A DNA stretch of 64,000 nucleotides from an uncultured Pelagibacteraceae bacterium (lineage in GTDB: Bacteria > Pseudomonadota > Alphaproteobacteria > Pelagibacterales > Pelagibacteraceae). How positions within the stretch are numbered: the first letter of the stretch is position 1; every line of letters begins with the position of its first letter. The position numbers were made by a program, and so were the translations under genes. Where the stretch lies: contig CACPQG010000001.1 in assembly GCA_902636025.1 (NCBI GenBank), positions 195,770-259,769 of the forward strand, given 5' to 3'. Positions 11,708 through 13,836 of the stretch are shown here, piece after piece. The notes under the pieces are model-generated. The model was not told the origin of the DNA. It was given only the letters and a program-made list of their open reading frames with translations, and did not search any database.

Positions 11708-12637
11708 ATGAAAATTTTAGGAATAGGAAATGCGATTGTCGATGTTATTTGCAAAGTGAATGACGATTTTTTATCTAAAAATAATTTAAATAAAAGTACC
11801 ATGAAATTGATTTTTGAGGAAAAAGAGTTCAAAAATTTGCTTTCAAATCTTAAAATAGAAAAAACTGTTTCTGGTGGCTCGGTTGCAAATTCAATAGTTG
11901 GTTTGTCTCAACTAAAAAATAAAGTTGGTTTTATTGGTAAAGTTTCTGATGATGAGCTCGGTGGAAAGTATGAAGAGGGACTGAAACAAGAAAGTGTAAA
12001 ATATTTTTATTCTAAAAAAAAAGAGGAACTTCCAACAGGGACTTGTTTAATACTGGTAACTCCTGATTCTGAGAGAACCATGTGTACTTTTTTAGGTACT
12101 GCAGGAAAAATAAACGAAAATGATGTTAGCGCAGATGCAATTAAGCAAAGTGAGATCATTCTCTTAGAAGGATATTTGTGGGATGAAGGTGATCCTAAAA
12201 AAGCATTTGATAAAGCTATACAAAATGCAAATAAGGTCGCTATGTCTTTATCAGATCAATTTTGTGTTGATAGACACAAGCCTCATTTTCTAGAACTTGT
12301 AAAAAATAAATTAGATATAACTTTTGCAAATGAACAAGAAATAATGTCATTAATAGACGCAAAATCTTTCGATGAAGTAATAAGTTTCTCAAAGTCTCTT
12401 AGTAAAATAATCGTTTTAACAAGAGGTGAAAAAGGAGCTGTAGCAATTTATAAAAACGAAGTTGTTGAATGTGGGATAAAACAAAATCTTAAAATTGTTG
12501 ATTTGACAGGCGCAGGAGATCTTTTTGCAGCAGGATTTTTACATGGTCATGTAAATAACATGTCATTAAGAGAAAGTTTGGATAAAGGCACTGAAATGTC
12601 ATCAAAAGTAATTCAACAAATTGGTGCAAGACTTTAA
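11708..12637 (+). CDS. PfkB-family carbohydrate/nucleoside kinase (adenosine-kinase-like)
   Basis: 309 residues with the ribokinase-family layout: N-terminal MKILGIGNAIVDVICKVNDD, the substrate GG motif SGGSVANSIVGLSQL (about 54-68), and the C-terminal anion-hole/catalytic-base motif DLTGAGDLFAAGFLHG (near 262-277), where GAGD holds the catalytic aspartate. Among PfkB members the N-terminal GIGNAIVD and TPDSERTMCTFLGTA sequence resemble the alphaproteobacterial adenosine-kinase-like group. The substrate cannot be fixed from sequence alone; adenosine or a sugar are possible. It is the last gene of a run beginning at dapB. Confidence 0.88.
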   Translation: MKILGIGNAIVDVICKVNDDFLSKNNLNKSTMKLIFEEKEFKNLLSNLKIEKTVSGGSVANSIVGLSQLKNKVGFIGKVSDDELGGKYEEGLKQESVKYFYSKKKEELPTGTCLILVTPDSERTMCTFLGTAGKINENDVSADAIKQSEIILLEGYLWDEGDPKKAFDKAIQNANKVAMSLSDQFCVDRHKPHFLELVKNKLDITFANEQEIMSLIDAKSFDEVISFSKSLSKIIVLTRGEKGAVAIYKNEVVECGIKQNLKIVDLTGAGDLFAAGFLHGHVNNMSLRESLDKGTEMSSKVIQQIGARL

Positions 12638-12647
12638 AATATTTTAA

Positions 12648-12755
12648 TCATTTTTTTTTTCTTTTAAAACTTCCTTTACCTTTTTTTGGTTTAATTACTC
12701 TAAGTTTATATTTAGGTGTCATTAAATCTTTAGCGATGGAATTTTTTTTTTTCAC
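12648..12755 (-). CDS. arfA: ArfA-like alternative ribosome-rescue factor (35 residues)
   Basis: A short minus-strand frame from GTG (12753-12755) to TGA (12648-12650). The product has N-terminal NSIAKDLMTPKYKLRVIKP followed by KKGKGSFKRK. This lines up with the core of ArfA (E. coli NAIEALL, DPLFRQRV, KKGKGSYMRK), which brings release factor 2 to ribosomes stalled without a stop codon. Its GTG overlaps the TAG stop of the upstream regulator as TAGTG, so translation is probably coupled. A shorter start at an internal ATG (residue 12) would lose the conserved N-terminal helix, so GTG is preferred. Too short for usual gene calling; the match is by eye to a very distinctive motif. A slippery run of ten A residues lies just before the stop codon. 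Confidence 0.75.
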   Translation of the reverse strand: MKKKNSIAKDLMTPKYKLRVIKPKKGKGSFKRKKK

Positions 12756-13333
12756 TATATAAAGTAACCCTTTTTATCACTTTTAATAAAATTTTGATCA
12801 TCAAATGTTTTTTTTAACTTTTTTCTCAGTCTGTATACATGAGTTTCCACTGTATGCGTTTCGGAGTCTTCTGCATAACCCCAAACTTCTTTTTGCAAAA
12901 CATTAATACTAATTGGATCTTTTCGAGTTTTTAAAAATAATATTATCTCAATTTCCCTTTCAGTGAGCTTAAGCTTATTTTTTTTAGAAGAAATAATTCT
13001 CGAGTTCAAATCTAATCTATAATTATTAATATTTATACTTGATTGAAAATCATATTGTTGCATTAATAAATTTGAATTAATTTTTTCAGCAAGCGAAAAG
13101 AAGTTAAATGGATAGTTTTCAATTGTTATTATTTGTTTTTTGTTTATTAAGTTATTATTTAATTTCTTTTTTGTCAGCACAACAAAACTTTTATTTTCTC
13201 TTTTCTTTTGTTCATTTATTAGATCTTTCTCGTTTTCAAAATCAAATAAATCGAAGTTAAAAAAGTTTTTAATCTCATAAATAATATTATATAAAGCTCT
13301 AAAGTTTAAAATATAAACTGCTGATTTACTCAT
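12755..13333 (-). CDS. Response-regulator-like protein with OmpR-type winged helix and degenerate receiver
   Basis: 192 residues. The C-terminal half (about 105-192) is an OmpR/PhoB DNA-binding domain: LKLTEREIEIILFLKTRK, VLQKEVWGYAEDSETHTVET and HVYRLRKKLKK are the transactivation-loop and recognition-helix signatures, ending KSDKKGYFI. The N-terminal half (1-100) has the length of a receiver domain but lacks the acidic pair and a clear phospho-acceptor aspartate, so it is unlikely to be phosphorylated conventionally. No histidine kinase is adjacent. It is divergent from the YkuD gene by 11 bases and coupled to the ArfA-like gene by TAGTG. Confidence 0.82.
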   Translation of the reverse strand: MSKSAVYILNFRALYNIIYEIKNFFNFDLFDFENEKDLINEQKKRENKSFVVLTKKKLNNNLINKKQIITIENYPFNFFSLAEKINSNLLMQQYDFQSSININNYRLDLNSRIISSKKNKLKLTEREIEIILFLKTRKDPISINVLQKEVWGYAEDSETHTVETHVYRLRKKLKKTFDDQNFIKSDKKGYFI

Positions 13334-13344
13334 TTGGTTAATTT

Positions 13345-13836
13345 ATGCTAATAAAAGTTAAAAATAAAGATACTTTAATTTTTGACGAGTTTATTTTTCG
13401 TTGTGCAGTTGGAAAAAAAGGAATCTCTAGTAATAAAAGAGAAGGTGATTTTCAAACACCAAGAGGATTATTTAAACTTGATACTGTTTACTATAGAGAT
13501 GATAGAATTAAAAATATACAAACTAAGTTAAATTTAAAAAAAATAAAAAGAAATATGGGATGGTGTAATGAGCCAAAAAGTGGAAAATATAATTCCTTAA
13601 TAAGTATTAAAGAAAAAATAAAACATGAGAGGTTATATCGAAAAGATAACAAATATGATATTTTAATTGTTATTGATTATAATTTGAAAAAACCTAAACC
13701 TTTTAAAGGAAGTGCAATATTTGTGCACCTTACGAAAAATTTCAACGGAACAGCGGGATGTGTAGCACTTTTAAAAAAGGATCTTTTAATTTTATTAAAA
13801 CTTATAAATAAAAAAACAAAAATTAAGATTTATTAA
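13345..13836 (+). CDS. YkuD-type L,D-transpeptidase-like protein
   Basis: 163 residues. The catalytic segment IFVHLTKNFNGTAGCVALL (about 134-152) fits the YkuD motif, with histidine and a Gly-Cys nucleophile (HLT...GTAGCVAL). Upstream KREGDFQTPRGLFKLDTVYY is the usual substrate-loop segment of this subfamily. No signal peptide is visible, as in the short alphaproteobacterial members of this family, so location is uncertain. It is only 11 bases from the divergent regulator start and shares a palindromic TTAA stop with the convergent yggS-like gene. Confidence 0.88.
   Translation: MLIKVKNKDTLIFDEFIFRCAVGKKGISSNKREGDFQTPRGLFKLDTVYYRDDRIKNIQTKLNLKKIKRNMGWCNEPKSGKYNSLISIKEKIKHERLYRKDNKYDILIVIDYNLKKPKPFKGSAIFVHLTKNFNGTAGCVALLKKDLLILLKLINKKTKIKIY

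Follow-up and report, generated by a model that had tools for sequence, protein, structure and literature searches.

Within the 64,000-nucleotide stretch of DNA analysed here (the window), whose nearest relatives are Pelagibacteraceae (SAR11) genomes, we find a 35-codon open reading frame (ORF) that is, as judged from its sequence, a real, conserved and minimal ArfA, with a function that we infer. Homology, purifying selection, genomic context, the presence of RF2 and a search that found no ArfB make it very probable that the ORF encodes a functional minimal ArfA translated from a regulator-arfA mRNA, probably via re-initiation at the overlap of the two genes. ArfA is a protein that releases ribosomes stalled on defective mRNAs. 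It was described as confined to close relatives of E. coli in a 2014 review and as limited to beta/gamma-proteobacteria in a 2021 review, and a 2024 survey recorded it in 0 of 2,376 Alphaproteobacteria. Our search of the open literature found no report of a chromosomal arfA in SAR11. The locus contains the following features:

12648..12755, minus strand: minimal arfA-like gene, 35 codons, GTG start, TGA stop (from ORF reading, PF03889 and profiles)
12753..12757, minus strand: TAGTG, where the regulator stop and the arfA start have one base in common (G at 12755)
12755..13333, minus strand: upstream gene, 192 aa, with a C-terminal OmpR/PhoB winged helix (PF00486) and a TAG stop
11708..12637, plus strand: convergent pfkB-family kinase gene, stop 10 bp from the arfA stop
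13345..13836, plus strand: divergent YkuD-domain gene, 11 bp from the regulator start

Identification of a 35-residue ArfA

We interrogated the sequence of the ORF in order to establish its identity. An earlier note, made by eye from the DNA, had described a minus-strand ORF with a GTG start and a TAGTG overlap and had likened its product to ArfA; our reading of the sequence confirms the ORF and the overlap, and profile searches support the homology. The 35-aa translation, MKKKNSIAKDLMTPKYKLRVIKPKKGKGSFKRKKK, is named by no NCBIfam model in an NCBIfam search, and scores 28.1 bits against the ArfA model PF03889 (gathering cut-off 25.5; E 1.4e-6), a match that is independent of the N-terminal minidomain, itself part of how E. 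coli ArfA works. A six-frame search of the organism's own 929-kb assembly returned this ORF as the sole ArfA match. We also made a profile without SAR11 sequences, combining E. coli ArfA with seven alphaproteobacterial relatives from outside SAR11. The ORF scores 48.2 bits on it, whereas none of 20,000 shuffled versions of the ORF exceeds 14.9. The GGQ release-factor domain that marks ArfB is absent from the 35 residues.

Residues 3-35 of the ORF align to ribosome-bound E. coli ArfA (YhdL). When a 27-sequence SAR11 profile (A1) was searched against the whole PDB, ribosome-bound ArfA chains were the only matches (E 1.4e-6, residues 3-34 ungapped), and hhalign of A1 with the E. coli ArfA core gives 96%. 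The core helix and the KKGKGS-Y/F-x-RK tail match the E. coli protein residue by residue in the alignment. The helix that contacts RF2 (E. coli residues 15-31) aligns to the PDB chains without gaps, although its side chains differ; Asn at position 5 is invariant (94/94 SAR11 copies) and Ala at position 8 is found in 91/94. The KKGKGS mRNA-channel motif is followed by Y/F-x-R-K, with PKKGKGS and RK invariant in A1, and this tail is the most conserved part of the protein. In contrast to E. coli ArfA, the SAR11 form lacks the KH motif (0/94 copies), the hydrophobic tail and any counterpart of E. coli ArfA residues 1-11, which lie within the N-terminal minidomain (1-14); a few SAR11 copies carry about 5 extra N-terminal residues. 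The position of E. coli Ala18 is occupied by Lys in 82/94 SAR11 copies, and the position after it by Asp/Glu. Further differences from E. coli are that the SAR11 gene is alphaproteobacterial, that its start overlaps the upstream gene and that it has no detected non-stop device.

Genomic context and start overlap

GTG is supported as the start codon because the closest relative (L253, 97% identical) has ATG at this position and two other relatives (L254 and L255) retain TAGTG. Across 94 SAR11 arfA loci, the start codon lies within -30 to +12 nt of the stop of the upstream ORF in 88, so that an overlapping or abutting start is found in most. The start codons at those 88 loci are ATG (62), TTG (14), GTG (10) and CTG (2), with ATG chosen wherever present and TTG, GTG or CTG otherwise. 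A convergent pfkB-like gene overlaps arfA or lies within 26 nt of it at 84/94 loci.

The upstream neighbor is mostly a winged-helix gene. In the window its N-terminal half gives no match to the receiver-domain model, and the gene may be a degenerate response regulator. The earlier note had also coupled arfA to this regulator. The overlap itself is real and conserved, but we rejected a special coupling: such spacing is usual here, with -30 to +12 nt separating 27 of the window's 42 same-strand gene pairs, and in a number of genomes (e.g. L008, L014, L047, L048) arfA follows a different gene, with the overlap kept there.

Distribution and selection across the order

Relatives of the ORF occur in 216/297 genomes of the order (A1 profile, E<=0.01), in line with conservation of the frame in SAR11, which the earlier note had proposed as a check. 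Matches in the organism's own family mostly reach E 1e-12 to 1e-21, while a second family of the order (f2) and one genus (g3) contain weak, diverged forms without GKGS. The f2 ORFs (L244, L247-L250) are 41-44 aa long and lack both GKGS and YxRK; several f2 ArfA-like ORFs stand directly behind a gene ending in MVDGGSVLL. Pairs at 85-95% identity show pN/pS of 0.04-0.08, and third codon positions carry most of the variation among the 94 loci. These loci were chosen by the KPKKGKGS motif and are uninformative on the conservation of that motif, for which A1 and the 297-genome search count.

Some complete SAR11 genomes lack arfA, and the gene is therefore dispensable. In most of the arfA-less genomes that we read (L074-L093), the regulator directly adjoins the end of pfkB, a junction that represents clean loss or the site before insertion. 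Replacement of arfA by a form without GKG in such genomes was seen in G003 only; this form was not found in the syntenic region of G005, G011, G013 or G024, and had no match anywhere in the complete genome G005.

Rescue systems of the order

Of the 297 genomes of the order, 257 have SmpB, as do 141 of the 150 most complete ones. ArfB was not seen: in 296/297 genomes PF00472 matches no more than two genes. The organism's own genome likewise contains just two such genes, one identified as RF2 (488 vs 370 bits) and the other, by eye, apparently RF1. A search of its own assembly, which is 83% complete, did not recover SmpB, and the tmRNA candidate stays below threshold (23.5 vs 50 bits), with nothing reported at that locus by ARAGORN or Rfam. 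By gene content, the order thus appears to combine trans-translation and no sign of ArfB with ArfA in most genomes. With SmpB present in the order and ArfB not seen, the ORF looks like the order's release factor-dependent backup, and the role of backup to trans-translation given to it in the earlier note is plausible.

Proposed mechanism and alternatives

In E. coli, the ArfA tail lies in the empty mRNA channel and residues 15-31 contact RF2. Residues 1-14 become ordered on RF2 activation/opening, with Ile11 packed on Ala18, and A18T inactivates the protein. In the SAR11 protein the middle and tail are kept, residues 1-11 are gone, Lys replaces Ala18 and KH is missing, so recognition of the ribosome is the safest inference; recruitment of RF2 is likely. 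The minimal ArfA would be translated from an mRNA shared with the regulator, probably through re-initiation at TAGTG, and would then bind the ribosome, select RF2 and bring about rescue. The missing residues 1-11, the Lys at the Ala18 position, the lack of KH and the dispensability of the gene count against a functional ArfA.

These features bear on a second reading, in which the protein is an ArfA homologue that works differently and, without the N-terminal segment, activates RF1 or both release factors, like ArfT. The loss of residues 1-11 and the Lys followed by Asp/Glu would suit it, as would the resemblance to Francisella ArfT, a 40-aa protein with a KGKGS-like basic tail that uses RF1 or RF2 and is not under ArfA-type control by transcription termination and RNase III. 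However, the RF2-facing helix and its spacing to the tail align ungapped with E. coli ArfA, and whereas ArfT has low overall similarity to ArfA according to its authors, the SAR11 ORF matches the ArfA family model. We regard this reading as rather unlikely. Bacillus BrfA is likewise a small RF2-recruiting factor with a basic tail, but its N-terminal helix is different and its transcript is terminated before the stop codon.

A short, very basic protein whose tail is its most conserved part could also occupy the mRNA channel for another purpose, for example as a hibernation or silencing factor, and recruit no release factor. Conservation of the helix as well, including the invariant N5 and A8, and its match to the RF2-contact region of ArfA make this improbable.

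Non-stop mRNAs give rise to both E. coli ArfA and B. subtilis BrfA. This is a form of regulation seen in the members that have been studied, and it lies outside the family model. The earlier note's proposal of feedback by trans-translation is not borne out here. A sequence search detected no terminator-like site at arfA, the arfA mRNA shows no unusual folding or hairpin (z -0.24) and the ORF has its own stop codon. The ORF ends where the ordered region of E. coli ArfA ends, and the stop comes directly after the core in 67/94 loci. Control by non-stop mRNA was rejected on the lack of both terminator and hairpin; with no such elements and a stop right after the core, control must differ from that of E. 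coli arfA and brfA. E. coli-like feedback could still arise if the convergent pfkB overlap, together with RNase III, yielded a non-stop mRNA, and pfkB does overlap or converge within 20 nt in 83/94 loci. This seems very improbable given the same terminator and folding results, and a stop codon right after the active region leaves no unstable tail to remove. Finally, although the locus is AT-rich with many A runs, the idea that a lysine-rich ORF arose downstream of a regulator gene by chance deserves practically no credence, being already refuted by the shuffle control, purifying selection, order-wide conservation and retention behind unrelated genes.

Phages and the wider alphaproteobacterial family

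We also examined ArfA relatives outside SAR11 chromosomes. At least 229 loci on putatively viral contigs encode such relatives; 80 were fetched and six inspected for long ORFs. On visual inspection, a B-type DNA polymerase is seen on L169 and a terminase on L185. Some marine viral relatives (L163-L242) have a WDGKSR-type N-terminal extension. ArfA has been named in phage RXM of Citromicrobium, and an ArfA PF03889 domain has been reported in gp30 of the SAR11 phage HTVC027P. Annotated as hypothetical, gp30 is a 58-aa relative with the same core, NPVAKEVRTPKYKSQIIKPKKGRGSFKR, and differs from the host form in being extended by about 20 residues at the N-terminus. The listed host of this phage is HTCC1062, which may correspond to the arfA-minus genome G011; if so, HTVC027P may supply ArfA to a host that lacks it. 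A tblastn search of phages with the 35-mer gave fragments only, perhaps from low-complexity masking of the basic tail.

Few other Alphaproteobacteria gave a PF03889 match when the class as a whole was sampled. A broad profile matched 31/372 genomes of this sample, three of them SAR11, and many of the sequences lack GKG; this related form is sporadic in other Alphaproteobacteria. Small ArfA-like proteins without GKG include L342-L361, L245, L246, L251 and L352. Like DUF7230 (PF23876), they share with the ORF an N-P-x-A-K-x-L-R/S-x-P-K-F/Y helix and a Y-x-RK tail, and differ from it in a tail without the three-residue GKG; most fall below the DUF7230 and ArfA cut-offs, while one GKG-less member from SAR11 genus g3 scores exactly the DUF7230 cut-off and the others score below it. 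A profile of GKG-less sequences searched against the PDB gave ArfA as the only match (E 7e-5). The link of these sequences to ArfA is good, although it is not independent, as an ArfA-containing profile was used to gather most of them.

We give about an even chance to a broader proposal, that SAR11 and its viruses use a minimal ArfA without the N-terminal activation segment or non-stop-mRNA control, within an alphaproteobacterial family that includes DUF7230 and was missed by surveys. Under this proposal, release-factor activation must differ from that in E. coli because the activation segment is absent.

Significance

SAR11 are among the most numerous marine bacteria. If the reading of the ORF as a functional minimal ArfA is true, a natural ArfA of 35 residues is close to the smallest working rescue factor, and feedback control through non-stop mRNA is not obligatory for ArfA. 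The finding also raises the question of why so many marine viral contigs carry ArfA, and it gives DUF7230-like proteins a testable function.
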